The notes under the pieces were generated by a model. That model worked only from the letters and a program-made list of their open reading frames with translations. It made no database searches and had not been told where the DNA came from. Of a DNA stretch of 64,000 nt, positions 9,564 to 32,090 are shown one piece after another (position 1 is the stretch's first letter; every line of letters starts with the position of its first letter). The stretch is from positions 3,092,012 through 3,156,011 of the forward strand of contig NZ_VJOK01000001.1 in assembly GCF_013302895.1 (NCBI RefSeq), given 5' to 3'. The DNA is from Streptomyces albus subsp. chlorinus (GTDB taxonomy: Bacteria > Actinomycetota > Actinomycetes > Streptomycetales > Streptomycetaceae). Position numbers and translations under genes: made by a program.

Positions 9564-9590
9564 GGCCCGCGGATCACCACTCCGCGGGCC
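9564..9590. terminator. Hairpin overlapping the tRNA 5' end
   Basis: Ten-bp perfect inverted repeat, GGCCCGCGGA (9564-9573) and TCCGCGGGCC (9581-9590), 7-base loop. It sits 55 bases after the GH3 stop, and its right arm includes the first three tRNA bases. It may terminate the GH3 transcript. Confidence 0.5.
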
Positions 9591-9660
9591 TCCGTAGCTC
9601 AGGGGATAGAGCACCGCTCTCCTAAAGCGGGTGTCGCAGGTTCGAATCCTGCCGGGGGCA
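9588..9660 (+). tRNA. tRNA-Arg, anticodon CCT
   Basis: A 73-base cloverleaf. The acceptor stem is GCCTCCG (9588-9594) with CGGGGGC and discriminator A at 9660. The D-arm is GCTCAGGGGATAGAGC, the anticodon stem-loop CCGCT-CTCCTAA-AGCGG gives anticodon CCT (9620-9622), and the T-arm is GCAGGTTCGAATCCTGC. CCA is not encoded. The gene is intact because integration at its 3' half restores the sequence. It is the attachment target of the island that follows. Confidence 0.95.
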
Positions 9661-9668
9661 CAGCAAAA
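9618..9668 (+). repeat. attL: tRNA 3' half, att core copy 1
   Basis: 9618-9663 is identical over 46 bp to 32415-32460. 9621-9668 matches 27290-27337 at 47 of 48 positions. The core begins in the anticodon loop and runs past the tRNA end, the usual attachment site for tyrosine integrases of actinobacterial elements. Confidence 0.92.
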
Positions 9669-9774
9669 CAGCAGGTCAGAGGCCCTGTCGTCCGGGAGGG
9701 CGGCGGGGCCTCCGGCTTGCAGCACACATATGGCACACATGCGCCTGTGCCCATCCCTGTGGGAGCTGTGCCCG

Positions 9775-10204: not shown

Positions 10205-11443
10205 TCACGCTGCGGAGCCCTCCAGTTCAACCACCTCTTCCGCGGCCCTGCGTGCCTTCTTCTCCGCCTTCTTCAGCTTGTCCTTCGCCTTGGCCAGTTG
10301 CTTGGCGCGGCGCTTGTGCATCTTCTTCGAGACCTCGTCCAGACGGTCCGGGAAAAGATGGCCGTAGGTGTCCAGCGTCAGGGTCGCGGACTTGTGGCCG
10401 AGCATGGACTGGACGACGTTGACGTCCGCGCCGCTGGCAATGGCGAGCGAGGCTGCCGTGTGGCGCAGCTTGTGCGGGGTGAGCTTCAGATGGCCCAGTC
10501 CCGCCTTGGCCACGGCGGGCGCGAAGAGCCGCTGACGGAAGTTGCGGGCACGGAGCGGCCCGTCATGCGGGGCGGTGAACAGTAGCTCGCTTTCGTGCCG
10601 CCCCTCGACGTACGGCTGGAGTTCCTCGACGAGGAAGCGCGGGATCGGTACGGACCGGCGCTCGTGGTTCTTGGGGCTGTCGAGGTAGAGCTTGCCGTTG
10701 TCCTCGACGTACGCCTCGACGACGTGCGCACGGCACGCGTCGAGATCCACCCGCCCCACCTTCAATGCTGACGCCTCGCCCCAGCGCAGGCCCGTATAGG
10801 CGAGCAGCAGGATGAACACCCGGTACGCGCCAGCCGCGTCCGCCAGGGCTTCGACCTGCATGTCATCGAGGTAGACATGATCGGCCGGCACCGCCTTGGG
10901 CAGCTCCACGCCGACAGCCGGATTGAACGCCAGACGACGGGACTTGACCGCGAATCCGAGCACGCGGCTGAACACGACGTACGCCTTGCGCACCGAGCGT
11001 GCGCTGAGCTTCCTGCCGCCCGTGACCTCACCGGACAGCATCGCCGCGAGCCACTCGGAGACGTCCTCGAAACGGATACGGTCCAGACGTGTGTCCCCCC
11101 ACCGGGGAATCACGTGAACGTCGAGAACTCCTCGGTAGCGATTGCGTGTTGAGCGCTTCAGATGGACCTGTGCTGCCAGCCAGGACTCCGCCAGCTCGGC
11201 GAACTTGACCCGTGCCGCCGCCGGATCGCGGTACGTGCCGTCGGAGAGGCGGGACTCGACCTTCGTCCGCTCGTTCTCCGCGTCGACCTTGCGGGCCACG
11301 GTCTTCATCTTCGGCTTGCCGTCAAGGTCGTACCAGCGCACGCGATAACGGCCCGGCGGAGTACGGCCCGCCTGCTTGGCCAGCGCCAGGGCGCGCGCGT
11401 ACGACGTGTGATCGATACGGTCCTCGATCCAGACGCGCGCCAT
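10205..11443 (-). CDS. int: Tyrosine recombinase, site-specific integrase
   Basis: This 412-residue integrase catalyses recombination between attP and the tRNA-Arg attB. The N-terminal part (1-75) is an arm-binding region with RYRVRWYDLDGKPK. The core-binding SAM-like domain covers about 78-170. The catalytic domain has Arg220 (YTGLRWGEA), His324 and Arg327 (HKLRHTAASLA), His350 (MLGHKSATLT) and the nucleophile Tyr360 (DTYGHLF). A Lys/Ala-rich coiled tail follows (about 375-405). The ATG at 11443 (MARVWIED) overlaps the stop of the upstream XRE gene as TGATG, so translation is probably coupled. The position near attL and the tRNA target are typical. Confidence 0.95.
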   Translation of the reverse strand: MARVWIEDRIDHTSYARALALAKQAGRTPPGRYRVRWYDLDGKPKMKTVARKVDAENERTKVESRLSDGTYRDPAAARVKFAELAESWLAAQVHLKRSTRNRYRGVLDVHVIPRWGDTRLDRIRFEDVSEWLAAMLSGEVTGGRKLSARSVRKAYVVFSRVLGFAVKSRRLAFNPAVGVELPKAVPADHVYLDDMQVEALADAAGAYRVFILLLAYTGLRWGEASALKVGRVDLDACRAHVVEAYVEDNGKLYLDSPKNHERRSVPIPRFLVEELQPYVEGRHESELLFTAPHDGPLRARNFRQRLFAPAVAKAGLGHLKLTPHKLRHTAASLAIASGADVNVVQSMLGHKSATLTLDTYGHLFPDRLDEVSKKMHKRRAKQLAKAKDKLKKAEKKARRAAEEVVELEGSAA

Positions 11444-11697
11444 CAGCTCTCCCTCCGCTGGAGCAGGGCCACCGGCGGGACTTCGAGGGCCCCGGCTATG
11501 GCAACGAGATCGTCGACATCGCAGCGCCGTCGCAGACATTCGATACGGCTGAGGGCCGTGTGCGCGAGTGGATGACCGAGCCGGTTCAAACGCGCAGCCA
11601 GTTCACGCTGGCTGAGGCCACGCTCATTGCGGACATGCTCGATCAGTCGGGCGGTCCGGAATCCAGCAGGCCCGATTGCAAGGGGTCGTTTCGCCAT
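11443..11697 (-). CDS. XRE-type regulator coupled to the integrase
   Basis: This 84-residue helix-turn-helix protein has RTARLIEHVRNERGLSQREL followed by AARLNRLGHPLAHTALSRIE, a Cro/C1-type fold filling about residues 13-75. Its stop overlaps the integrase ATG by one base. The start is uncertain: ATG at 11697 (MAKRPLA) or ATG at 11718 (MSSYNID); neither has a good ribosome site. A dyad at 11717-11741 covers the upstream start, which suggests autoregulation and that the 11697 start is used. By analogy with other integrative elements it should control integrase and excisionase expression. Confidence 0.8.
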   Translation of the reverse strand: MAKRPLAIGPAGFRTARLIEHVRNERGLSQRELAARLNRLGHPLAHTALSRIECLRRRCDVDDLVAIAGALEVPPVALLQRRES

Positions 11698-16678: not shown

Positions 16679-17821
16679 TCAGCTTCCAAGAGGAGTAGTG
16701 GTGGGCGGGGCGTCCGCACTGCGCTCAAGACAGAGGCGCAGCCGGTCCTGGGCCGATGTCACGGTCCGCATCAGGTCGCTTCGCCAGGGTTCCGGTACGG
16801 TCCCGGCGTCGAGTCCGGCCGTGCGAACCACGCTGGTGAGGGCTCGGCGCTGGCCGACGGACATCGCGCATCGGAGCTGCGGCTGGGCGAGCGCGTCCCG
16901 GGCCGCGTAGCCGTCGGCGTGGGTCGTAGCAAGGACGTCCGCGTGCAACTGGGGTATTCGCGCGCTGGTGTGGGCTTCGGCCAGGATCAGCGAGGCGATG
17001 CCGACCCGGGCGCGGAAAACGCTCGTGCCGGCGACGGGCTGCTGCTGCAAGGTGAGCGCTGCGGTGAGCATGTCCTCCAGGTGCACCGCTGGAACGGCAC
17101 CGGAGGCGTCCCGGCACAGGGCGCGCAGCAGGCTCCGTACCGCTTCTTCCCACGGCTCGGCGAGCCGGCTGTCGGTAAGCAGGGCGGTCGCCTCGTCGTG
17201 ATGCCCCTTGTGGAGGAGGGCGAGGATGGTGATCTGGCGGCCGTCGAGGAGCCGGGCGCCAACGCCGCGGTGGGCTGCTGCGGCATTGGCCGCTTCGCTC
17301 CAGCGGCCGGCCTGGGTCAGGGCGCGGGTGCCGTCGGCCAGCAGTGCCGCCCACACCAGGGTGCAGAGCGTCTTGTGCTCGTCCGCGGAGTTGGTGAGCG
17401 TGTGGAGGGTGACGGTGCGGCCAGTGATCTGGGCGGAGGTGCGGGTGCGGGCGGCGCGGAAGAGTGCGTCGAGCGTGGCGTAGGCGCTGTTGCCATCGCC
17501 CTCGCGGATGAGCTGTCGGGCGACGTTGAGGATCGGTTGGAGCGCGAGTTTCACCGCCCAGGAAGGAAGCGGCCTTGCCTGTTCGAAGACCGCGTACTGG
17601 GACCAGCACAGGGTGCGGGCGAGGTCGGGCACTGCGCAGTCGGAAGCAATGAGGGCAGCCTTGTTGCACACCTCGGCGGCGCGGGTGGCTTGCTGCTGGA
17701 GGGTGCCGGTGGCGGGTTGTGCGGCAAGGTCCGTCAGCTGGGTGATCCGGGTCGTGAGGGGGAGCGCAGGTGGGCGGGGCCGCTGGATGAGGGGGAACCA
17801 TGCCAGAAGCCGGTCGTTCAT
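16679..17821 (-). CDS. Helical-repeat (TPR-like) protein of the lanthipeptide cluster
   Basis: This 380-residue soluble protein consists almost entirely of paired alpha helices with Ala/Leu-rich TPR-like spacing, for example ARQLIREGDGNSAYATLDAL and LHKGHHDEATALLTDSRLAE. No catalytic motif, signal or membrane segment is seen. Proteins of this type often sit at the end of class I lanthipeptide and thiopeptide operons in Streptomyces, but their role is unknown to me; scaffolding or regulation are guesses. Its ATG overlaps the stop of the upstream SpaB_C-type gene by four bases (ATGA), so it is the last gene of that operon. Confidence 0.7.
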   Translation of the reverse strand: MNDRLLAWFPLIQRPRPPALPLTTRITQLTDLAAQPATGTLQQQATRAAEVCNKAALIASDCAVPDLARTLCWSQYAVFEQARPLPSWAVKLALQPILNVARQLIREGDGNSAYATLDALFRAARTRTSAQITGRTVTLHTLTNSADEHKTLCTLVWAALLADGTRALTQAGRWSEAANAAAAHRGVGARLLDGRQITILALLHKGHHDEATALLTDSRLAEPWEEAVRSLLRALCRDASGAVPAVHLEDMLTAALTLQQQPVAGTSVFRARVGIASLILAEAHTSARIPQLHADVLATTHADGYAARDALAQPQLRCAMSVGQRRALTSVVRTAGLDAGTVPEPWRSDLMRTVTSAQDRLRLCLERSADAPPTTTPLGS

Positions 17822-18642
17822 GCCGGGGCCCCTTGCCCGCTCTGGTCCTTGAGGGCGGGGTCAGGGCCGAAGACGACGGCCTTGGCGCCTGTAGCCAGGG
17901 TGGCCTGGGTCGCGTGCGGGAGCCCGAACCGGTTGAAGGCGAAGATGAGGTGGTGAGCCAGGACGGCGCGCAGCCCACGGTGCAGCCGCCCGCCAGCGGC
18001 GAGCGCAGCCAGATCGCGGCCCGCGGTGGTGAATGCCTGCGGCCAGGCGGCGGGGACCGTGAGCGGGGCGCCGTCCCGGGTGAGCTGCGTGACGTCGGCG
18101 GTCATCAGGTGGCGCAGCCCTTCCCGCAGGCTCTTGAGTCTGCCGTCGGGCTCAGGCTGCGGCCGGTCGCGGTGGTCGGCAACGCGTGCCCAGACATCGC
18201 CCTGCTCGTACCAGTCGAGGCCGGCGGCGCGCAGCAGCGCGGTGCACAGCAGGACCGCCAGTTCGCGGCGGCGCGGACGGTCACGGTGGCAGTTCAGGTG
18301 GGCGATCAGGTGGTGGCTGTCGCGGTGGAAGAGTTCATGAGCTGTGTTCATGGCCTCCGTCCCGCCGAAGGCGTGGGTTTCCGGCTCGTAGATCGCGGGG
18401 GTCACGGCGGTGAGGTGCTGATCGCGCTGGAGGGGGCCGAGGACGTACAGGAGGTGGTCCTCGGCCGCCACGGGGTTGTCGGGCGGCTGGTAGCGGATGC
18501 GCCAGGTAGGGGTTTTGCGGACGAAGAACCAGGGGCCGGTCTCGGCGGTGGCCAGGAGCGGGACGACGTGGGTGAGGGCCGTGTGCTCGGCGCTGTCCCA
18601 GTTGGGGAAAGCGATGGTGATCTGCCGCCAGGAGGTGTCCAT
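17818..18642 (-). CDS. Thiopeptide-type bacteriocin biosynthesis protein (SpaB_C/TIGR03891-like)
   Basis: This 274-residue stand-alone version of the LanB C-terminal domain begins WRQITIAFPNWDSAEHTALT. It contains GPWFFVRKTPTWRIRYQP and a long helical C-terminus. In full LanB enzymes this domain eliminates glutamate from glutamylated Ser/Thr to give dehydroamino acids; in split systems it is separate. The split-LanB fragment at 19896-20984 already ends with its own copy of this domain, so the cluster has two. They may act at different steps or have a redundant relationship, which cannot be decided here. The ATG at 18642 follows GACGGAG. It lies 21 bases after lanC. Confidence 0.8.
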   Translation of the reverse strand: MDTSWRQITIAFPNWDSAEHTALTHVVPLLATAETGPWFFVRKTPTWRIRYQPPDNPVAAEDHLLYVLGPLQRDQHLTAVTPAIYEPETHAFGGTEAMNTAHELFHRDSHHLIAHLNCHRDRPRRRELAVLLCTALLRAAGLDWYEQGDVWARVADHRDRPQPEPDGRLKSLREGLRHLMTADVTQLTRDGAPLTVPAAWPQAFTTAGRDLAALAAGGRLHRGLRAVLAHHLIFAFNRFGLPHATQATLATGAKAVVFGPDPALKDQSGQGAPA

Positions 18643-18663
18643 ACGGGTTCGGCTCCGTCTCGT

Positions 18664-19899
18664 CTATGCCAGGAGGAGGAAGGCGTCCCAGCCCGATCGC
18701 GGGGGCGTGTTGGTGCCGAGGGTGTGCAGGGCGAGCGCGCTGCCGGCAAGGCCGTCCAAGAGTTCGGGGTCGCGCTGCTGGAGGTGGGTGATCTGCTGGC
18801 TGAGCCGGGTAGTCAGGCGGGGCAGTTCGGCGGCAAGGACACCGGTGGTCGCGTCGGTGGCCATGCGCCAGGCGGCCTGGAGCAGTCCGGCGGTGCCGTG
18901 GCAGAGCCCGGTCTCGGTGAGCATCTCCAGCTGGCCCGGGGCCTGGAGAGTGGTGAGCATGGCGCGCTCGGCGGTCTGCCGGCGGGAGCTATCACCCAGG
19001 GCCATGCCCGCGAGTTGCTGTGCTCGGGCGGTGCCGGCGATGCCGTAGCACCACGAGGGCCTCGGTCGCAGTGCCGGATCGACGTGGTGGCGCCGGACCT
19101 GGTCGAGGGTGATGAAGCCGGGCCACCAGGGACCGGTGGCATCGTCCTGGCGCCACCGGTCCGTCCAGGCGCAGATCCGTTCTGCGGCTTCGCGCGCACC
19201 GGGGACGGCCGGGCCGTCAAGCAGGGACAGGGAGAGCAGGGCGAGTACGGAACCGATGCCGTGAGCCATGCCGAAGTTCCCGTGCCCGCCGGGGTAGTCG
19301 GGGCTGACTTCGCCGTTGGGCGCCACGCCGGTCCACCATGCTGGGAGGTCGAGGCTTGGGGAGCGGGGTTCGGTCAGGCGTACCAGGTAGGCGAGGACAT
19401 CGGTGGTGACCGGGTGGTCTGGGTGACGCTTGAGGTGGTGGGCACCCAGCCCGGCGAGGCCGCGGATCACGTCGAATTCCTTCATCGCCGGGGCCTCGCC
19501 GCGCTCGATGCGGGCGTGGGCGTGAGCCAGGCGTCGGCGGGTGACGGAGAGCGTGGCGTCGTCCAGGTTCTTCAGGGCTCGCTGGTAGCGGCTGGAGTCC
19601 CCGGCGGCGGCGTTCATGGCGAAGGCCAGGGCCGGGGCTCCCATGTAGAGGCTGGCGTTCGAAGCAGCGGTCAGATCGCTGTGGGCGGCCGATGCCAGCC
19701 AGGTGTGCACGGTGTCCCACTCGCCCCGGCCGCAGTGGGCGCGTTCGATGTGGAGCAGGGCGATGCCCGCGGCGCCGCCCGCCAGTGACTGCGGCCACGC
19801 CCGACCGGCCGACGGTGCCGTATCCCAGGCGGTGCGCGGGTCGGACAGCTGCGCGGCCAGCGTGTCGGCCAGGGCCAGAGACTGCGGTATCGGCCTCAC
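18664..19899 (-). CDS. lanC: Lanthionine synthetase C (LanC-like cyclase)
   Basis: This 411-residue zinc enzyme adds cysteine thiols to dehydroalanine/dehydrobutyrine residues to form (methyl)lanthionine rings. LanC motifs are all present: GGHGNFGMAHGIGSVLALL (around 205-223), then SWCYGIAGTARAQQLAG with the first zinc Cys, then GLCHGTAGLLQAAW with the Cys-His zinc pair. The toroid repeats GAAGIALLHIE, YMGAPALAFA and GLAGSALALHTL are also visible. The start is GTG at 19899, overlapping the LanB stop by four bases (GTGA), which implies translational coupling. The open frame extends further upstream but only as antisense-like sequence in the lanB region. Confidence 0.92.
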   Translation of the reverse strand: MRPIPQSLALADTLAAQLSDPRTAWDTAPSAGRAWPQSLAGGAAGIALLHIERAHCGRGEWDTVHTWLASAAHSDLTAASNASLYMGAPALAFAMNAAAGDSSRYQRALKNLDDATLSVTRRRLAHAHARIERGEAPAMKEFDVIRGLAGLGAHHLKRHPDHPVTTDVLAYLVRLTEPRSPSLDLPAWWTGVAPNGEVSPDYPGGHGNFGMAHGIGSVLALLSLSLLDGPAVPGAREAAERICAWTDRWRQDDATGPWWPGFITLDQVRRHHVDPALRPRPSWCYGIAGTARAQQLAGMALGDSSRRQTAERAMLTTLQAPGQLEMLTETGLCHGTAGLLQAAWRMATDATTGVLAAELPRLTTRLSQQITHLQQRDPELLDGLAGSALALHTLGTNTPPRSGWDAFLLLA

Positions 19900-20984
19900 G
19901 AGGTTCTTCCCTCTTTGCTGCGGGCGGTCCAGCTCAGGGCCGCGGCACGGGCCAGGTGTACGCAGCGGCGTTCGGCCTCCATGTCCAGGGCGGCCATGCG
20001 GGTGTGGTGCAGGTGCAGCAGTTCCGGCAGCACGACGGTCGCCGTGAGCCCTCCCGCCGTCGCGAGGGCACTGCGGTAGAGGGCCAGCGCGTCGCGCCGC
20101 AGCGTCCAGCGGGCCAAGAGCTCCTCGCCCCCTGGCTGTTGGGACAGGTGGGTGCGGTCGTGGAGGTTGGCCAGAGCGATTGCCTGGTCGTACAGGCCGC
20201 GGTCCGGCGCCGTGCCGGTGGTCTGGGCGCAGTCGATGAACCACCGCATGGCCTCGCCCGCATCACCGACCAGGCCGATGACCACATCGAGCATGCTGGC
20301 CGCGGTCATGGCCCGCCGATCGGGCCCGCCGGTGGCCGCACAGGCGGCCAGTTGCGCGACGGCGGCTTCGGAGTCAGCCGCGAAGTACGCCTCGGCGGCA
20401 TCCCATGCCTGGGGGCCTCCGAAGCGGGCGGTCTCGGGGAAGTCCGTGTCCCACTGCACCCGGGCCAGCGTCCCCGCCTGACGCAGTCGCTTGGTCCAGG
20501 CGCCGACTACCGTGGCTGCGGCCTCGGCCTGGTCGTTTCCGACGGTCAGGCGTAACCGCAAGTGATCCTCGGGGTCGCGGTAGGGCAGGAACCACCACCG
20601 CACCCCGCCGCCCCGCAGATCACGCAACCGGTGGAGCAGGTCCGGAAGGTGGCGGGTGAGGATGCCGGCGTGGCGGTCGCGGTGTGCGTAGAGCTTGAGG
20701 AAAAAGTGTCCGTCGCAGCCGGGCAGGCGGCCGTGCGCGCGTTCCGACACCGGGGCCGTGTGCAGCCAGTGCGGCATCTTGACGGGGCTGCTGGTGGTGG
20801 TGAGGGGGATGACGACTTCGTGGGGGTGGCCGTTGATCCAGCCCGCGTCGGCGGCGGTTTCGGCGCGCAGGACCGCGCTGCCGTGACGCCGCATGTGGGT
20901 GTGCAGCAGGGCCCGGTGGGAGGGCTCGTCCAGGTCCAGGCGGAGGCGCTGGTCGCCCTCACCCAGGTAGACGGCGCTCGGCAC
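19896..20984 (-). CDS. LanB dehydratase, C-terminal fragment (split by frameshift)
   Basis: This 362-residue frame carries the C-terminal third of a class I lantibiotic dehydratase. It begins PSAVYLGEGDQRLRLDLDEP, which in intact enzymes is internal. It continues with VRWWFLPYRDPEDHLRLRLT and the SpaB_C/TIGR03891 elimination domain (about 90-350). The same frame stays open another 56 codons upstream to 21152 and there encodes FDWGTASRLPF, the missing link to the N-terminal fragment. The GTG at 20984 has only weak ribosome-site character, so independent translation is doubtful. Its stop overlaps the lanC start. This is either a real split or broken gene or a one-base sequence error at about 21153. 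Confidence 0.8.
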   Translation of the reverse strand: MPSAVYLGEGDQRLRLDLDEPSHRALLHTHMRRHGSAVLRAETAADAGWINGHPHEVVIPLTTTSSPVKMPHWLHTAPVSERAHGRLPGCDGHFFLKLYAHRDRHAGILTRHLPDLLHRLRDLRGGGVRWWFLPYRDPEDHLRLRLTVGNDQAEAAATVVGAWTKRLRQAGTLARVQWDTDFPETARFGGPQAWDAAEAYFAADSEAAVAQLAACAATGGPDRRAMTAASMLDVVIGLVGDAGEAMRWFIDCAQTTGTAPDRGLYDQAIALANLHDRTHLSQQPGGEELLARWTLRRDALALYRSALATAGGLTATVVLPELLHLHHTRMAALDMEAERRCVHLARAAALSWTARSKEGRTS

Positions 20985-22977
20985 CCTGATCTGGTCGCGC
21001 CAGGCGGACAGAGACCGGTCCCACCGGTCCCAGCCCGTCGTGGGGTCGGCGAGGTCGGCGGTGGTGAGCCGCCAGCGTGCCGGGGTGAGGATCGTGCGTC
21101 CGTAACGCAGGGCGGGCCGGAACGGCAGACGTGAGGCCGTGCCCCAGTCGAATGGTGCACGGGACGCTCATGGCGTGAGGGGCTTCGGTAAGGAACCGCA
21201 CCAGCGGGTGGGTACGGCGGGTGGGCTCCACCGCGTTCATGGTCACGAACTCCAGCGGACAGCGCCGCGAGGTCGATATCAGGTACAGACGGTCGGCGTC
21301 CGCGGTGACGGCGATGTCCTCCACGGGCACCAGGTCCGTGCTGCCGCCGTCGTGGCACTCGCCGAGTCGGACGGCGGCGGGCATCATCTGCGCGGTCCGG
21401 GAGACGTTCCCGGTGCCCGCATACAGCGGGGGCGCAACGACCTGCACCTTCAGCGCGTTCTCGGTGGCGGTGGATGCCGTCGCGTACACCGCCGCCATTC
21501 GATCCCGGTCGCGCCTGTCGAGCAGGCTGAGGAATCTGCCGGTCGTCGTCCCGGCGGACCGCGAGACCCCCACGACCGCCAGCGTGAACTCCCCGGCGGC
21601 CAGGGCCCCCACGCTGGGCGCCGCGATGCGCACGGTCACCTCAGTCGTCGGCTGGATGCGTCTCTCCGGCCCGGCCTCAGTGAGGTCGGTGACCATGGCA
21701 TCGTCCAGCACGGTCTCGCGGCTGCGGCGCAGGGCCGCGTTCTGGGCGAGCGTCAGCAGCTTGGTGTCCCGCTCACTCACAGCTGCCTCGGCCGGGGCGG
21801 GTGGACCGCCGAGGAAGCCGGCCGGGTAGTCCAAGCCCGTGCCACTGTCCACGGCATCCAGGAGCGGGACCACGGCGCGCGGGCCGTAGCGCTCCAGGAA
21901 GCGGCCGTGCCACGCCACCCAGCTGCGGGAGAGCGCCGAGCGGCCCGAGAGCCGGATAAGCGCAGCAGCCGCCCGCGCAGCCTCGGCCGCCACCGCACGG
22001 GGGAGCGTCATCTCGGCGTTCAGGCGCAGATCGAGGGACAGCACCGGCCCGGAGACCGGGTTGAACTCGCGCATCACCGCAGTGGCCTCGGCTCGCTCGG
22101 CCTGGGCGGTCGCTGGGTCGGTCGTGATGTTGTGCCGCGTCAGCGCGTGGGCGATCTCGCGCAGCTTCGCCGTCGGCTCGGACGCCGCAGAGGTGTCCTC
22201 GGTGCCGAGGACGGTCAGCAGATGGGCGAGCGGGTCCGTCGCCGTGAGCGCCGGGCGGAGATCCGTGACCAGGAAGCGCTGGTCGATCAAGTCCGCCAGG
22301 AGCCGGTGGACGGTGGCTGCGGGGACGTGGGGGAAGCCGGTGGCCAGTTTGGCCGCAAGGTCTGCCGTGCGGATAGGGGCGCGGGCCGCGTCCAGTGCCG
22401 CCTTGACGGGTGTGGTGAGGCGGACCTGCACGTGCTCCGGGGCACCGCCGCTGCTGCCCGTCGGACGGTGTTCCAGTACCAACGAGCCGTCCCGCTCCAC
22501 CGCGAGCGGCTGAGCCTGGACGGTGAGGTGCGGCTGGAGCTTGCGGTCGGCTTCCAGTCGTTCGACCATCGCCGTCACCCACGCCGCGTCGGGCCTGGCG
22601 ATGGCCTGGTGGCGAGTGCCGATGCGGGCTGCCGGCGCACTGGCGATGCGGGTCGGCGCTACTCCGGCGAACAGGCCGAAGGGAGTGGCCCGTCCCGAGG
22701 CGCGCAGCACGTAGCGCAGGAGGGCCACGACCACTTTGCGGACGGCCGGTGCGGGAAGCTGCCGCCCCTCGCAGATCTGCTGGACGCGGTGTGCCAGCAC
22801 CGGGCTGGCCTGCTCCACCGCGGCGGCGAAGCCGGGGATCTGCAAAGTCTGCTCCAGCCACGAACGCCACGGTTCCGGGCCGCCGCCGTCGCCGGTCAGA
22901 TCGGGCCAGGACTGGATGCGGTGATCCGGTGGCCAGGCCGCCGCCCGCAGAACCGCCCCGTCGATGAACTCGTACAC
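20959..22977 (-). CDS. lanB: LanB dehydratase, N-terminal fragment (frameshifted after residue 608)
   Basis: This is the glutamylation part of a class I lantibiotic dehydratase, which uses Glu-tRNA to activate Ser/Thr of the precursor. Lant_dehydr_N marks include VALLRYVLRASGRATPFGLF with AGVA after it (around 84-108) and AWVTAMVERLEADRKLQPHL. It runs to RTHPLVRFLTEAPHAMSVPC near residue 606. Beyond that the frame gives only Arg/Pro/His-rich nonsense (about 65 residues), while the correct continuation lies in another frame starting at 21152. One extra base at about 21153 explains it: the repaired gene would span 19896-22977 and encode 1026 residues, the normal LanB length. The GTG at 22977 follows AGGGGGG. 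Confidence 0.85.
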   Translation of the reverse strand: MYEFIDGAVLRAAAWPPDHRIQSWPDLTGDGGGPEPWRSWLEQTLQIPGFAAAVEQASPVLAHRVQQICEGRQLPAPAVRKVVVALLRYVLRASGRATPFGLFAGVAPTRIASAPAARIGTRHQAIARPDAAWVTAMVERLEADRKLQPHLTVQAQPLAVERDGSLVLEHRPTGSSGGAPEHVQVRLTTPVKAALDAARAPIRTADLAAKLATGFPHVPAATVHRLLADLIDQRFLVTDLRPALTATDPLAHLLTVLGTEDTSAASEPTAKLREIAHALTRHNITTDPATAQAERAEATAVMREFNPVSGPVLSLDLRLNAEMTLPRAVAAEAARAAAALIRLSGRSALSRSWVAWHGRFLERYGPRAVVPLLDAVDSGTGLDYPAGFLGGPPAPAEAAVSERDTKLLTLAQNAALRRSRETVLDDAMVTDLTEAGPERRIQPTTEVTVRIAAPSVGALAAGEFTLAVVGVSRSAGTTTGRFLSLLDRRDRDRMAAVYATASTATENALKVQVVAPPLYAGTGNVSRTAQMMPAAVRLGECHDGGSTDLVPVEDIAVTADADRLYLISTSRRCPLEFVTMNAVEPTRRTHPLVRFLTEAPHAMSVPCTIRLGHGLTSAVPARPALRTHDPHPGTLAAHHRRPRRPHDGLGPVGPVSVRLARPDQGAERRLPG

Positions 22978-25667: not shown

Positions 25668-26453
25668 TCAGCGATTCGCCATGTAGAGGATGAAAAGTGC
25701 GCCGGCTAGGACGCCCCAGGCGAACGCGAAGAGTCGCGCCCTGTGGTCGGGAAGAACCTTCGGTGGCGGTGGAGTCACCGTGGCCTCAATACGGTCCGCC
25801 GCACCATTCAGTGCGCTCCCTATCTCCTCGATCCGGCCGAGAGGCTTGTCCCTGCGCTGCATGTTCTCCAAGTCTTGGGCAAGCCGGTCAATGGAACTTA
25901 GTCCTTTTTCAAGACGGGATACCAACCCCATCAGATCGTCGGACCCTCGCACGCTGATGGCGTTTTCAAAACGGTTGACAACCAGGCCAAGCTCATCAAT
26001 ATCGAGTTTGCCGGTCACTTTGACAAGGGTGTCCGCGACGTGTGACATCTGGCCAGCGACATCCTCGTTGATGCTCCGACTCGCCTCCGTGAGCAACCCC
26101 GCGACATCCTCGTTAATGCTACGGCTTGCACGGGAGATCAACCCTGCCACGTCCTCGTTGATGCTCTGAGCAGCCCGCAAGAGGGTGTCAGCGACATCTT
26201 CGTTGATACTACGCGCTGCTAGCGCGAGCAACGTCGCGGTTTCTGAGGAGATCAGCCCCTCCGTCAGAGCCTCTTCAAGCATCTCGGCCAGAGCAGGGGA
26301 ATCGTCGGAGATCTTCTCCAACAGGGCTTTGGTCTTCTCATCGAGCGCCTCGATGTGGATCTCGCCATGGTTGTCGCCCCCGACGAAAGCGCCGTCACCG
26401 TGGTTGTGCTGCTCTGTGACGCGGCGTTCAGGGGAATCATCGATGTCTGTCAA
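25668..26453 (-). CDS. Tail-anchored coiled-coil protein with N-terminal amyloid-like motif
   Basis: This 261-residue protein has no family I can name, but its architecture is clear. Residues 15-34 (QHNHGDGAFVGGDNHGEIHI) form a Gly/His/Asn-rich motif that also ends the neighbouring Bell-like protein. Residues 80-139 hold four exact-length 15-residue repeats with SINEDVA at 82, 97, 112 and 127. A further coiled-coil region runs about 140-225. A Pro-rich linker (TPPPPKVLP) precedes a final membrane helix, ARLFAFAWGVLAGALFILYM, so it is likely a C-tail anchor with the motif in the cytoplasm. The ATG at 26453 overlaps the upstream stop (ATGA). I infer a membrane-tethered partner or trigger for the Bell-like protein. 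Base composition is lower in GC than the lan genes. Confidence 0.75.
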   Translation of the reverse strand: MTDIDDSPERRVTEQHNHGDGAFVGGDNHGEIHIEALDEKTKALLEKISDDSPALAEMLEEALTEGLISSETATLLALAARSINEDVADTLLRAAQSINEDVAGLISRASRSINEDVAGLLTEASRSINEDVAGQMSHVADTLVKVTGKLDIDELGLVVNRFENAISVRGSDDLMGLVSRLEKGLSSIDRLAQDLENMQRRDKPLGRIEEIGSALNGAADRIEATVTPPPPKVLPDHRARLFAFAWGVLAGALFILYMANR

Positions 26454-26857
26454 CGCTCGTCCTGCCCATCGGCACGGACAGAACCGTAGTTGTCCCCGCC
26501 GATGAAGGTGCCTCGCCCGTGGTTGTGCTGTGCTCCGATGTTGACCGTTTTCGTGTCAGTCGGCGTCGAAGAGCTCAGCGCCTCAATATCCTCTCTGGCC
26601 TCGGGGTAGGCGGTGAGGAACGCGGTAAGCACACTGCTCCACTGGGCAGTAACCTCAGCTTGGGTAAGCCGATGTTGTTCCAAGCCCTCGGCATGCTCCT
26701 CAAGCGCTCGCAGCGCGTCAGACTCTTCGTCCGCTGTCCCGCGGCGGAAGATCGTGGAGATTCGGGCCCGCAAGGCGTCGGCCCGCCCTTGAAGCAGATA
26801 GGCGAGAACGTTGCTGGCAGCGCCAGTGGCGATGGCGGTAGCTGCTGCGTCGAGCAT
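26450..26857 (-). CDS. Bell-domain-like protein with C-terminal amyloid-like motif
   Basis: This 135-residue protein begins MLDAAATAIATGAASNVLAY, followed by a cationic helix (ADALRARISTIFRRG). It has a helical middle (residues 45-93) with LTAFLTAYPEAREDIEAL, and ends with the motif QHNHGRGTFIGGDNYGSVRA (110-129). The first part and the order of parts match bacterial Bell domains, membrane-perturbing helical bundles related in logic to fungal HeLo/HET-S, whose C-terminal amyloid motif is templated by a partner. The motif shares 12 of 20 residues with the N-terminal motif of the next gene. The family call is from pattern memory. The ATG at 26857 follows GGGGGGC. The stop overlaps the next start by four bases, so both are made from one mRNA. 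Confidence 0.72.
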   Translation of the reverse strand: MLDAAATAIATGAASNVLAYLLQGRADALRARISTIFRRGTADEESDALRALEEHAEGLEQHRLTQAEVTAQWSSVLTAFLTAYPEAREDIEALSSSTPTDTKTVNIGAQHNHGRGTFIGGDNYGSVRADGQDER

Positions 26858-27149: not shown

Positions 27150-27289
27150 CAGCGACACAGCAGAACGGATTCCGCACACATGAGGACGGGAAGCCCTGCG
27201 AACACGTGACAACCACGAAGAGGAGTTTTCCCAGGTCAGACGACCGCGAGCAACGTTTCCGCAGGTCACCGCCTTGATCAGGGAAATCC
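27150..27289 (+). repeat. attP right arm, copy 1 (element 1)
   Basis: This stretch closely resembles 32280-32414 in content and order. Shared blocks include CGGATTC, CACACATG, GGACGGGAA, GAACACGTGA, CAACGTTTC, GCAGGTCAC and GGAAATC, the last immediately before the att core. It is a probable integrase arm region common to both elements. Confidence 0.75.
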
Positions 27290-27337
27290 CCTAAAGCGGG
27301 TGTCGCAGGTTCGCATCCTGCCGGGGGCACAGCAAAA
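27290..27337 (+). repeat. attM: att core copy 2, junction of the two elements
   Basis: Matches 9621-9668 at 47 of 48 positions; the difference is A to C at 27314, in the T-loop equivalent. No 5' tRNA half is present, so this copy is not a tRNA gene. It ends element 1 and begins element 2. Confidence 0.92.
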
Positions 27338-27366
27338 TGCCTGCTCAGAGGCTTTTCCGTCCATCG

Positions 27367-28207: not shown

Positions 28208-29878
28208 GTGAAGTACTGGCTGTTAGCCGCCGAGAACAAGACGTCCGCGTACGAGATGACCCGCGGATCTTCCCAGTCGGCCGGGGGCTGGGATTCGTCG
28301 CTTTCAACCGTCACCAGCCTCGATGTTGAGGAGGGCGACGCAGTCCTACTGTGGCGGAGGGGCCGAGGCGGCGGTGTAGTGGCGCTGGGAGAAATCACCA
28401 GCACTATCCCTGTGGAGTCCGACACGCTTGGTTGGCCGCTCGCGCGGCTCATAGAGAGGGACGACGAGAGATCGGCTCCCCCTCACGTGAGAGTGCATCT
28501 GTACTTCGGCAAGCTCTCGTTCGCCGCCCCTGTCTCGGCCTCGATACTCCGGACTTCGGGCCTTGATCACGTAGTGAAGCGGGCGCGGTCAGCGACTAAG
28601 GGGCGCCAGTTGGTAGCACTCAATCTGGCCGCCAAGCGATGGAGAGATTTGATTCAACTCATGGAGGAGATACACGAACCGGATGACATGCCCACAGGTT
28701 GGAGCATCCCACCCGGGGCCGTCGTCAAACGGAGCGAACTGCACGATGTTTACGGAGGCAGTCCACGACTCACTGTCGGTTCCAGTGCAAGGACTCCCAA
28801 CGCATTACTCTTCCTCGATCGCTCCGCCACAGGCGAACTTGCCCCTCGGTGGGATGGCCCTGTGCTGCTTGCTCCCGGACAGTCGCAGTGGACAGATACC
28901 ATCTCGGACGACAACCTGGCCGCGCTCGCGCACAGGCGGCGCGGTGTCCCGCTGAGGGTCTTCGTCGCGCACCGCAGCGAGAGTCTCTATCTCGGTGAAT
29001 TCGCGATTGAACCCGAATCACCGGTGGAGCACTGGGTGGATACCGGCAAACGGAATATCCGGCCCTCCTACGCTCGTCGGCCACACGTAGTGGACACTCG
29101 AGCACCGCTATTCCGGCTTCGCCAGCTGAACGGCGTGTCGATGCCAACGGACGAGGTAGACCCGTTCCAGAATGCCTCTCGCATGAGCCTTCGGCTGCAA
29201 CCTGTCGGTAACCAGCCAGCCGCGACCGCCATCCGCAAGCTGCTTACCGTTCTGGAAAGCGAGCCAGCAACCGCCACGTCCCTCGTTGAGCTCGACGAGG
29301 CTCAGCTGCTCGCGACTTTGGTTCAACGCGCAAGATGGCAGGCTGATCTGAATGAGCTACGCGCCGCAGTCGCGGACCCCGAAAGCAGCGAAGGCGACCT
29401 GCAGAGACTCGTCGAGCGGATGACCTGGATCTTCGGGGGCGAGTTCCTGCCAGGCACGGTCCGCCGCAACATCACCCTGCGAGACCAGCTGGACCTGGCT
29501 CTGCTCCGGCCAGACGGCACCCTGCACGGCGTCGAACTCAAGAAGGCCAACATCACGCGACTGGTCACCGGCCAGCGGAACCATCTGATTGTTGGCACAG
29601 AGATCAACAAAGCGGTCGGGCAGGCAATGAACTACCTACGCGAGCTGGACGAGAAGCGCCCACAGATCCTAGTGGACTTGGGTATCGATTGCCGACGCGC
29701 GTCGATGACGGTAGTGATCGGGCACAGCGGATTCGTGACTACAGGTGCATCGCCCCAAGAGATCGACGAAACCATTCGTACCTTCAACTCGTACCTGACG
29801 CGCTTGAGCGTCACTACATACGGCCGCCTAATCGAGAACGCGCAGCGGACAATCAATCTAACGGCCTCAGACGGATAG
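28208..29878 (+). CDS. EVE-like domain fused to Shedu-like (DUF4263) nuclease
   Basis: This 556-residue protein has three parts. Residues 1 to about 135 start KYWLLAAENKTSAYEM and include EEGDAVLLWRRG with GVVALGEITS, like EVE/PUA domains that bind modified bases. A middle domain (about 165-330) has YGGSPRLTVGSSARTPNALL and no family I can name. The C-terminal part (about 400-550) resembles Shedu SduA: LVERMTWIFGGEFLPGTVRR, then Asp426/Asp429 in RDQLDLALL and VELKK (Glu443, Lys445), a PD-(D/E)xK centre. This suggests a restriction-like defence enzyme that recognises modified phage DNA, an inference from the parts. The start is GTG at 28208 with GGGAGGGAAGAC upstream. GC content is below that of the backbone. 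Confidence 0.8.
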   Translation: MKYWLLAAENKTSAYEMTRGSSQSAGGWDSSLSTVTSLDVEEGDAVLLWRRGRGGGVVALGEITSTIPVESDTLGWPLARLIERDDERSAPPHVRVHLYFGKLSFAAPVSASILRTSGLDHVVKRARSATKGRQLVALNLAAKRWRDLIQLMEEIHEPDDMPTGWSIPPGAVVKRSELHDVYGGSPRLTVGSSARTPNALLFLDRSATGELAPRWDGPVLLAPGQSQWTDTISDDNLAALAHRRRGVPLRVFVAHRSESLYLGEFAIEPESPVEHWVDTGKRNIRPSYARRPHVVDTRAPLFRLRQLNGVSMPTDEVDPFQNASRMSLRLQPVGNQPAATAIRKLLTVLESEPATATSLVELDEAQLLATLVQRARWQADLNELRAAVADPESSEGDLQRLVERMTWIFGGEFLPGTVRRNITLRDQLDLALLRPDGTLHGVELKKANITRLVTGQRNHLIVGTEINKAVGQAMNYLRELDEKRPQILVDLGIDCRRASMTVVIGHSGFVTTGASPQEIDETIRTFNSYLTRLSVTTYGRLIENAQRTINLTASDG

Positions 29879-30236: not shown

Positions 30237-30262
30237 CTCGTATGACGTATGCGTCATACGAG
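30237..30262 (-). terminator. Terminator hairpin at the end of the PD-(D/E)xK gene
   Basis: CTCGTATGACG (30237-30247) and CGTCATACGAG (30252-30262) form a perfect 11-bp stem with a TATG loop. On the minus strand it is followed by a T-rich CCTTTCCTTTC. It overlaps the stop codon of the gene at 30254-30256. Confidence 0.75.
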
Positions 30263-31807
30263 GTTAGGAAATCTCGGGCGCCATCCGAACTGCCTGAGTC
30301 CGACTCTGTCAACGACGACGGCATAGTGTCCCATCCTCAAGGTGAACGCCTCCTCGGAATAGTGCAGGCCCCGCTTCGGCAGATCCGGACGCTTGAGCAT
30401 CTCCACAACGCTGCGAAGCGACGGCGGGTCTCCGGACTCGATTAGATAGCGCAACGAGGTCGGGTAGATGCCCTGCACGGAAATCGGCCGCAGACAGAGC
30501 TGCTGGGGTGTGCCCACGCCCCAGGTCATCTCAATCTCACTTAGCTGGGGCCATCCGCCCGGCAGCTCAGCCACGGCAGTCCCTGACTCCAGTTCGCCAC
30601 GCACCCTCCCCAACTGGTCTGCGGCAGAGGTGACCCAGCTCTCCACTTTACCTACTTCCCGCCGCGTGACACCGTCGATGGGCCACTTGATTTCGAGGCA
30701 GATTCCAAGCTTATTCTTGGTGTCGACAGCTATGACGTCCAGGTCTCCCGCGCGTTTTCCATCAGCACGCAGCACCTTCACACCGCTCCGTGCTGATACC
30801 CCCGGAATCGCGGCAAACCAGTCCTCCCACTCTTTTGCCCGTTTCCCCAGGGTGTGACCCACCCGACCGAACCGACTCGCATCTTGAGCCGCCGTTCTCA
30901 GCGCAATGACATCAACCGCCCTCGAAGTGATGAGAGGAGGACAAAGGATGATCCTTTCTCCACTCTCGACGAGGGGCGCGGTCCGGGCCGAACGGCCCAC
31001 CCGATAGGTCAACCGCTCCAGCAGGTCGTCGATATGCGCGGTCGGAACTTCGGGGCACAGCTGGCCCAAGGCATCGACCATCACTTGCCGATCCAGATGA
31101 GCAAGCGTGCTCTCCAGTCTCGCGGCAGAGCGAGCCGCAAGTTCACAGAGGTCGGCAAGCCCCATGATGCCGGCCAGGAGAACCGTGGCTTCCCTTATAG
31201 TGAGTCCGTTGCCGAGGGCGAAGGGATCGGGCAAATATCCTTCCGGCGCAGACTTCCTCCAGGCATCAATAGACACCATTGCCCGGTCTGCGGACGCCTT
31301 CAAAACCTCGAACGGCGGCCCCTCGCGCGACTCGACGGGGCGAGCCCCGGCCCACCTCCGTTCCACCTCGGAGAACGGTGGTAGTCCTCTGGGACGCGCT
31401 CGTGATTCCAGATACATGTCGGCTGCCTCAAGGGCCACATCCCAGGCGTGGCGAACTCGAAGATCCCTGCCTCTGCGCCTAACCGAGTAACCTCCCATGC
31501 GGATACTGTGTTCTATCTGCTCCCACCGTGAGAACTCGATGGCGGAGGTGAGCACTTCGAAAGCCGCCTCCTCATCACAGTCACCATCACCAAGCGGAAA
31601 CTGGTGATGCCACTCAATCACGAACTCGAAGAGGGTTTCCCAGGGAACATCAGTCTGTATCCCGGAATCTATCTCCCTGGCCCTGAACTCGGCCGCCTTC
31701 CGCAGTAGCGCGTAGATGCGTCCCGCTCCTGCACTCCATGCACGGTGTAGCCGCAGTGCGGACCTCTTTCTGGAAATCTCCTCCAGAAGCTCTTCCACCG
31801 GTTTCAT
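30254..31807 (-). CDS. Large protein with PD-(D/E)xK nuclease-like motif
   Basis: This 517-residue soluble protein is mostly helical in its first 300 residues, including ITSAIEFSRWEQIEHSIRMG-like and WRKSAPEGYLPDPFALGNGL segments (second quoted exactly). A C-terminal domain (about 340-450) has KVLRADGKRAGDLDVIAVDT followed by KNKLGICLEIKWPIDG: an Asp then Glu-x-Lys on adjacent strands, as in PD-(D/E)xK nucleases. No other motif is recognised. The ATG at 31807 has GAGGGGGAGAG upstream; ATGs at 31825 and 31846 have none. It is convergent with the EVE-Shedu gene inside the same element and has similar lower GC, so it may be a second defence gene. The pairing is inferred from position. Confidence 0.65.
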   Translation of the reverse strand: MKPVEELLEEISRKRSALRLHRAWSAGAGRIYALLRKAAEFRAREIDSGIQTDVPWETLFEFVIEWHHQFPLGDGDCDEEAAFEVLTSAIEFSRWEQIEHSIRMGGYSVRRRGRDLRVRHAWDVALEAADMYLESRARPRGLPPFSEVERRWAGARPVESREGPPFEVLKASADRAMVSIDAWRKSAPEGYLPDPFALGNGLTIREATVLLAGIMGLADLCELAARSAARLESTLAHLDRQVMVDALGQLCPEVPTAHIDDLLERLTYRVGRSARTAPLVESGERIILCPPLITSRAVDVIALRTAAQDASRFGRVGHTLGKRAKEWEDWFAAIPGVSARSGVKVLRADGKRAGDLDVIAVDTKNKLGICLEIKWPIDGVTRREVGKVESWVTSAADQLGRVRGELESGTAVAELPGGWPQLSEIEMTWGVGTPQQLCLRPISVQGIYPTSLRYLIESGDPPSLRSVVEMLKRPDLPKRGLHYSEEAFTLRMGHYAVVVDRVGLRQFGWRPRFPNLV

Positions 31808-32090
31808 CTCTCTCCCCCTCGCCATCCGAGACTCTCGGAATGGCATCGGTCAGATACCTGGACGCCCCGAGCGCAGACCACGGTCTTGGGTCCGCATGTG
31901 ATCCTCGTACACCAAGCAGTACGACACCAGCAGATTGCCAGCTCCACATGCGCTAGGTCCCCCGCCCCAGGTGACCCTCCACCGGCCATCGGCGCTGGAC
32001 GGACATTCGGAATCTACTCAGCAAGAGACCGCCAGTTGGCTCTTTACGTAGTTGAAGCTGGTGGAGGCGTGGGGGAGAAAGCGCCCCACC

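Follow-up and report, generated by a model that had tools for sequence, protein, structure and literature searches.

Matching motifs in an overlapping gene pair on a Streptomyces integrative element: a candidate Bell-type system with a tail-anchored partner

The gene pair and its genomic setting

The window examined in the present study is a 64,000-nt stretch of the genome of Streptomyces albus subsp. chlorinus, to which all coordinates refer. Two genes on its reverse strand encode P1 (135 aa, 26450..26857), a candidate Bell-like effector based on its open reading frame, AF2 model and profile homology, and P2 (261 aa, 25668..26453, TTG start), a tail-anchored coiled-coil partner and candidate receptor based on its open reading frame and hydropathy. 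The stop of P1 and the start of P2 share four nucleotides (TTGA, 26450..26453, reverse strand), which suggests coupled translation, and effector and partner genes abut or overlap at the nine junctions listed. Re-reading of the open reading frames reproduced the overlapping genes, coordinates and peptides given in a first-pass annotation, the reported span of which (26352-26857) takes in all of P1 and, of P2, only the first 34 codons. Neither protein is covered by a curated family, and sequence matches in Pfam, NCBIfam and PDB are weak throughout. The same holds for PADLOC, where the best match is ZorA for P2 (E 7.7e-4); we rejected this identity and read the match as coiled-coil similarity.

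The pair is cargo of an integrative element at a tRNA-Arg gene, bounded by a 76-nt, 86% direct repeat and carrying integrase, HTH, DUF3631 and relaxase genes. The left att site (9618..9693, forward strand) overlaps the 3' part of the tRNA-Arg gene (9588-9661), its 86% copy forms the right att site (27287..27362, forward strand), and the tyrosine integrase of the element is encoded at 10205..11539 on the reverse strand (PF00589, 3.6e-24). The start of P1 lies about 0.4 kb inward of the right att site. A Shedu (SduA) gene (28208..29878, forward strand; PF14082, 3.1e-8; PADLOC SduA, 1.2e-66) neighbours the pair just outside the element. Defence cargo is often found in such positions of integrative elements. 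Two short overlapping genes on a mobile element, the toxin-like one first, would also suit a toxin-antitoxin or effector-inhibitor module, in which P2, tethered to the membrane, would inhibit the membrane toxin P1 by holding it through a non-templating interaction of the two motifs.

Other genes of the surroundings include those for the N- and C-terminal parts of a lantibiotic dehydratase within the element (17818-22977), an HTH/DUF5753 and DUF397 gene pair beside P2 (24252-25468) and, near Shedu, a gene for a 530-aa protein (30254-31846) that looks nuclease-like to the eye and has no Pfam or PADLOC match. No match to P1 was found in phage records, no member of its clade in viral contigs, and no match to P2 on plasmids. 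Five S. anulatus plasmids carry distant relatives of P1, and the one examined encodes a RHIM-type effector and, behind it, a 716-aa protein whose N-terminal motif is similar.

Predicted architecture of the two proteins

The AF2 model of P1, based on a three-sequence alignment, predicts helices at residues 4-22, 26-37, 42-60, 66-83 and 85-96 with pLDDT mostly >90, giving a five-helix domain at residues 4-96 (26570..26848, reverse strand) followed by a predicted disordered tail (residues 101-135, pLDDT <50). The hydropathy of the first helix is 1.43, under the transmembrane (TM) cut-off of 1.6 applied here, and the N-terminal helices of 11 other members of the P1 clade range from 1.17 to 1.68, with three of the 11 above 1.6; the moderate hydrophobicity in P1 counts against a membrane effector. 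No solved fold is clearly like P1 (Foldseek best E 1.3; VIA best Z 5.3, which is no higher than helical bundles generally give). The weak rows of this comparison include Bcl-2-family proteins, which we did not take as evidence, and no HeLo or MLKL chain is among the fold matches listed, which excludes nothing.

Bell is described as a small bundle of helices that includes a hydrophobic one and bears a motif at its C-terminus, encoded beside an NLR (PMC7889193), and P1 fits this description as a Bell-like effector. The Bell-like character put forward in the first-pass annotation is supported by profile comparison of the domain with other effectors: a motif-free profile of the P1 clade, aligned using hhalign with four other effector groups, gave probabilities of 86.6 (E 4.4e-6), 97.0, 98.3 and 97.6, and 20 column-shuffled control profiles, tested against the first group alone, did not exceed 1.8. 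Among the members of the matched groups, L038 precedes an NB-ARC/TPR protein, and L084, L110, L112 and L122 precede proteins with a P-loop pattern (pattern only), the motifs at the two ends being alike in each of these pairs; several members of the first group lack an NLR neighbour. Using BLASTP, the P1 domain matches the RHIM-type effector domain of L033 weakly (E 0.16) and one effector paired with a two-transmembrane (2-TM) protein clearly (5e-10). A motif-free effector profile found relatives in 275 of 392 genus genomes, a count for the family as a whole because the profile also contained rows of other motif types (L033, L038 and L032); the hhalign comparison of motif-free domains is independent of it.

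P2 has one predicted TM segment at its extreme C-terminus (about residues 241-259, 25677..25733, reverse strand), with a hydropathy of 2.12 over 19 residues from position 241 of 261, in agreement with its earlier description as membrane-anchored. Such a segment is called in eight of the 11 rows with a tail-anchored (TA) partner. The misses are G058 (1.25, below the cut-off), L070, in which the frame breaks ahead of the TM segment and a TM-like stretch lies in another frame, and Actinospica, in which P2 is cut short. G058 is one of the two loci in the receptor swap described below, and its value counts against a membrane receptor.

The remainder of P2 includes a PPPP stretch and four 45-nt repeats (26053..26232, reverse strand) encoding 15-residue SINEDVA-type repeats, of which three are detected by pattern in most relatives. 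AF2 predicts long helices with poor confidence (pLDDT 46), and no sensor or NTPase domain was recognised using Pfam, NCBIfam or PADLOC. With repeats and a TM segment that are scaffold-like and no recognised sensor domain, P2 might be a mere anchor or scaffold that recruits P1 through a non-amyloid homotypic binding tag, the true sensor lying elsewhere.

The shared motif and its partners

The effector-side motif, QHNHGRGTFIGGDNYGSVRA (26471..26530, reverse strand), forms the C-terminus of P1 together with six further residues, and the receptor-side motif, QHNHGDGAFVGGDNHGEIHI (26352..26411, reverse strand), begins at residue 15 of P2; both were delimited by translation of the open reading frames and motif comparison. 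Their identity of 12 in 20 positions stands as first reported, and chance similarity was rejected, as the best ungapped 20-mer in 300 shuffles of both whole proteins reached 10 (mean 7.3). The coding stretches do lie close together across the gene junction, where they also form a 47-nt direct repeat (77%, copies 119 nt apart). Codons are moreover shared at 163 of 241 identical motif residues versus 126 expected, and a duplication origin or gene conversion may thus help to keep the motifs alike. That the similarity is nothing but a functionless by-product of local duplication at the junction is nevertheless very improbable: the motif is retained in frame at opposite protein ends, across three receptor architectures and with positions invariant among relatives, and the two sides change in part together, with GNINI on both sides in L076 versus GDINI on both sides in L071-L074. 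We therefore rejected duplication as a full explanation.

Effector and partner motifs covary in part. FIGRD occurs on both sides in L070, and all four motifs of G411, which has a TA pair and a 2-TM pair, carry R at the FIGRD-type position; in L071-L074 and L076 the effector has FIGSD or FIGND versus FVGRD in the partner. Over 19 pairs, cognate motifs agree at 13.3 of 20 positions versus 11.4 for non-cognate motifs (0 of 20000 permutations as high), a signal that still includes common descent. This set is without G225, G442, G436, the second G411 pair, G335, G374, G326, G202 and G261, as well as G451 and G126, where the effector is broken. The values are 13.2 versus 11.7 for 12 non-redundant pairs (1 of 20000 permutations) and 14.0 versus 12.4 for eight TA/NLR pairs (162 of 20000).

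Single-sequence searches of 199 related genomes found P1 in 12 and P2 in five, one of these five matches being the N-terminus of an NLR. The P2 profile matches 16 of 392 genus genomes, and in all 16 the motif is kept on two adjacent genes, the partner being P2 in ten, a 2-TM protein in five and an NLR in one; no homologous pair lacking the motif was found among them. Because the motif is part of the P2 and 2-TM profiles, their matches are biased to motif carriers, and the 16 of 16 result shows pairing rather than absence elsewhere. Partners were first picked mechanically, which left several rows wrong or partnerless, and the rows used here are those checked by eye; only some candidates were scored per genome, making the survey counts lower bounds. 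Among 396 phylum genomes (236 genera), P2 was found in the window's own genome only, with a weak partial match in G475. Beyond the genus, Actinospica has the pair, and G126 has it in broken form. In G126 (L030:8723-9617), the effector slot ahead of the P2 fragment is occupied by an aromatic amino acid lyase with a broken frame (PF00221 on three pieces), which ends in the motif QNNHGSGTFVGGDNYGGI.

The place of P2 is taken by an NLR in a natural swap, which supports the earlier view of P2 as a tail-anchored coiled coil in an NLR's stead. The effectors of G058 and G035 are 84% identical. Behind the former lies a gene for a P2-type coiled coil, and behind the latter one for a 1398-aa protein with the same N-terminal motif and linker, then an NB-ARC domain (85-274) and TPRs. 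At the DNA level the two loci share a 555-nt stretch of 82% identity that runs from the effector to roughly codon 44 of the receptor. Beyond this point they diverge, and the remaining receptor parts are no more similar than shuffled sequences (local score 39 versus a mean of 33 and a best of 46 in 50 shuffles). In a tree of 34 effectors, that of G035 falls inside a 12-row clade with 11 TA effectors (98/96), beside that of G058 (93/87), a placement for which the meeting of long branches is a possible artefact.

Further partner types carry the same class of motif. In G374 (L185) it precedes a NACHT domain (Pfam E 4.6e-9), and the partners in G326 (L186) and G202 (L183) are NACHT-type by sequence reading only. 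In the genus sample the 2-TM family accounts for 12 pairs, the effector being broken in one of them. Not counted as pairs were a degenerate 2-TM locus in G261, in which the effector has the motif and the partner has a degenerate motif and a broken frame, a lone 2-TM gene with the motif beside the TA pair of G058, and fragments matching the 2-TM profile in G460, G443 and G283, in which neither motif nor effector was seen. With TA, NLR and 2-TM partners each found behind this effector, three architectures are therefore joined to one effector type and one motif type.

The partner types bear directly on whether P2 could be an inhibitor. In favour of a toxin-antitoxin or effector-inhibitor module, G451 keeps P2 behind an effector motif without a recognisable effector body, and G335 keeps the 2-TM partner of an effector with an in-frame stop. 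However, NB-ARC or NACHT-type proteins with the same motif fill the P2 slot, an arrangement for which activation has been described (PMC7889193). The Actinospica effector frame is intact although P2 is cut off before the TM segment, and motifs that are similar rather than complementary would favour homotypic stacking. We thus regard this module as unlikely.

Several arrangements were noted at other loci. The TA and 2-TM pairs of G411 (L175) are convergent and share the same motif, and with the TA pair and lone 2-TM gene of G058 (L027) they possibly represent three- or four-part motif networks. The partner in L033 has no Pfam match. In L032:8509-9428 a different motif, GTGDQHN, is common to a Bell-like effector and a multi-TM protein, and a RHIM-like VVQSGAIHGDV lies near the N-terminus of a small two-TM protein following a RHIM-type effector in L116 and L119. 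Divergent to P1 in S. cellostaticus (L025:2132-5350) is a 1072-aa protein, HTH/NB-ARC/TPR-like by eye, with an N-terminus lacking the motif and no PADLOC match.

Proposed mechanism and relation to known systems

The central core of the RHIM is (I/V)Q(I/V)G. The core of the present motif is mostly (T/A)F(I/V)G and does not match the RHIM type; in a RHIM-like register, Phe takes the position of the central Gln of the RHIM. When peptides were scored with a profile built from 29 motif 20-mers, six of six from L033, L078 and L079 (for example NNTGSVIQIGRDNSG) reached 9.7-24.7 bits in register, with none of 2000 shuffles of each as good, and three VIQAG-type peptides did not stand out (243, 44 and 39 of 2000 shuffles). 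All shuffles were likewise surpassed by an NLR peptide of a different motif type (L106, 5.5 bits), and the test is thus suggestive rather than specific. Alignment with some RHIM-like motifs, with Phe for Gln, is suggested on this basis. A comparable case is the cryptic RHIM of Drosophila PGRP-LC, which forms amyloid without a conserved Gln (PMC9496462); the likeness is offered as an analogy of mechanism and makes no claim of homology.

This alignment argues against the motif being a non-amyloid binding tag, as do its conserved Q/N/G/F/D positions and its place in the predicted disordered tail of P1. RHIM-like BASS3 forms foci in Podospora (PMC9815663) and fibrils (PMC7885112). The further motif-bearing 2-TM proteins beside the TA pairs of G411 and G058 indicate that more than two partners can share the motif, which a recruiting scaffold would accommodate. 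Overall, we consider recruitment through a non-amyloid tag rather unlikely.

Based on the sequence evidence, our preferred reading, to which we assign a probability of roughly 0.6, is an amyloid-templated cell-death switch acting at the membrane, with P2 as its input and P1 as its output: a Bell-type pair whose receptor slot is occupied by a membrane protein. P2 would be held in the membrane by its C-terminal anchor, with the coiled coil and N-terminal motif in the cytosol. P1 would be the executioner, its small helical bundle starting with a hydrophobic helix and its disordered tail bearing the motif. Clustering or a membrane disturbance, such as phage entry, would be the likeliest trigger, upon which several P2 motifs would gather into a cross-beta seed. 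This seed would template the tail of P1, leading P1 to oligomerise directly at the membrane, and the oligomers would permeabilise it, so that the cell would be killed or arrested, presumably in defence.

We counted in favour of this amyloid switch the matching motifs, their conservation in 16 of 16 genomes, the cognate excess, the swap between G058 and G035, the NACHT-type and 2-TM partners, the NLR-linked effector domain, the AF2 fold, the gene overlap and the position as element cargo by Shedu. Counted against it were the lack of a clear fold match for P1, the BLASTP E of 0.16 for its domain, the pLDDT of 46 for P2, the codon agreement, the imperfect covariation, the lack of a recognised sensor domain in P2 and the rarity of P2.

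Bell/NLR amyloid signalling in bacteria, with motifs BASS1-10, was reportedly described by Dyrka et al. in 2020 (J Mol Biol). Adjacent genes with matching amyloid motifs (BASS) are known from the passages available to us (PMC7889193, PMC8086366, PMC12261475). As described there, Bell/NLR systems resemble P1/P2 in their adjacent or overlapping genes, small helical effector with a C-terminal motif and partner with an N-terminal motif, and relatives of P1 likewise precede NLR-type genes; they differ in that P2 is a tail-anchored coiled coil (a 2-TM protein in relatives), not an NLR, and is without an NTPase domain. HET-S/NWD2 and HELLP/PNT1 of Podospora, from partial texts (PMC7885112, PMC12881547), are also effector/receptor gene pairs with matching motifs and, by analogy, a membrane-active helical effector. 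Their receptors are NLRs, unlike P2, and the likeness implies no claim of sequence homology.

The PGRP-LC receptor has an ectodomain, a difference from P2. In the excerpts available for PGRP-LC/Imd of Drosophila (PMC9496462), as proposed here, a cytosolic RHIM-like motif of the receptor, from which the conserved Gln is missing, seeds a partner bearing a similar motif. Imd is described as an adaptor, not a pore-former, and no homology is claimed. Effector-associated domains (EADs) are folded domains, in which they differ from the present motif. Conflict systems with EADs are comparable in having modules that join effectors to NTPase-type proteins in multicellular bacteria (PMC7159879, PMC8195603); in the text of these two papers available to us, the word RHIM occurs in neither and amyloid once, in a reference title. 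The passages on BASS and the Podospora systems have amyloid signalling in bacteria and fungi start from NLRs. Among the matches listed, from literature that included few preprints and lacked the founding 2020 paper, none described a tail-anchored or 2-TM protein in the place of an NLR in bacteria.

With about even confidence, we propose more broadly that bacteria have membrane-resident amyloid-signalling receptors, tail-anchored coiled coils here and 2-TM proteins in sister systems, which replace the NLR beside a Bell effector and keep only its N-terminal cross-beta motif, placing the seed at the effector's site of action, the membrane. In that case the motif would be a Phe-cored, 'cryptic' relative of the RHIM, bacteria would have membrane-receptor-to-RHIM signalling of the PGRP-LC/Imd type, and receptors would be exchanged by recombination just behind the motif. 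The nearly identical effectors of G058 and G035, each with an unrelated receptor, make this modularity directly testable, and a two-gene circuit of about 400 residues in total would provide a minimal, testable model of an amyloid switch firing at the membrane. If the proposal is true, the templating motif, and not the NLR, would be the constant part of amyloid signalling.
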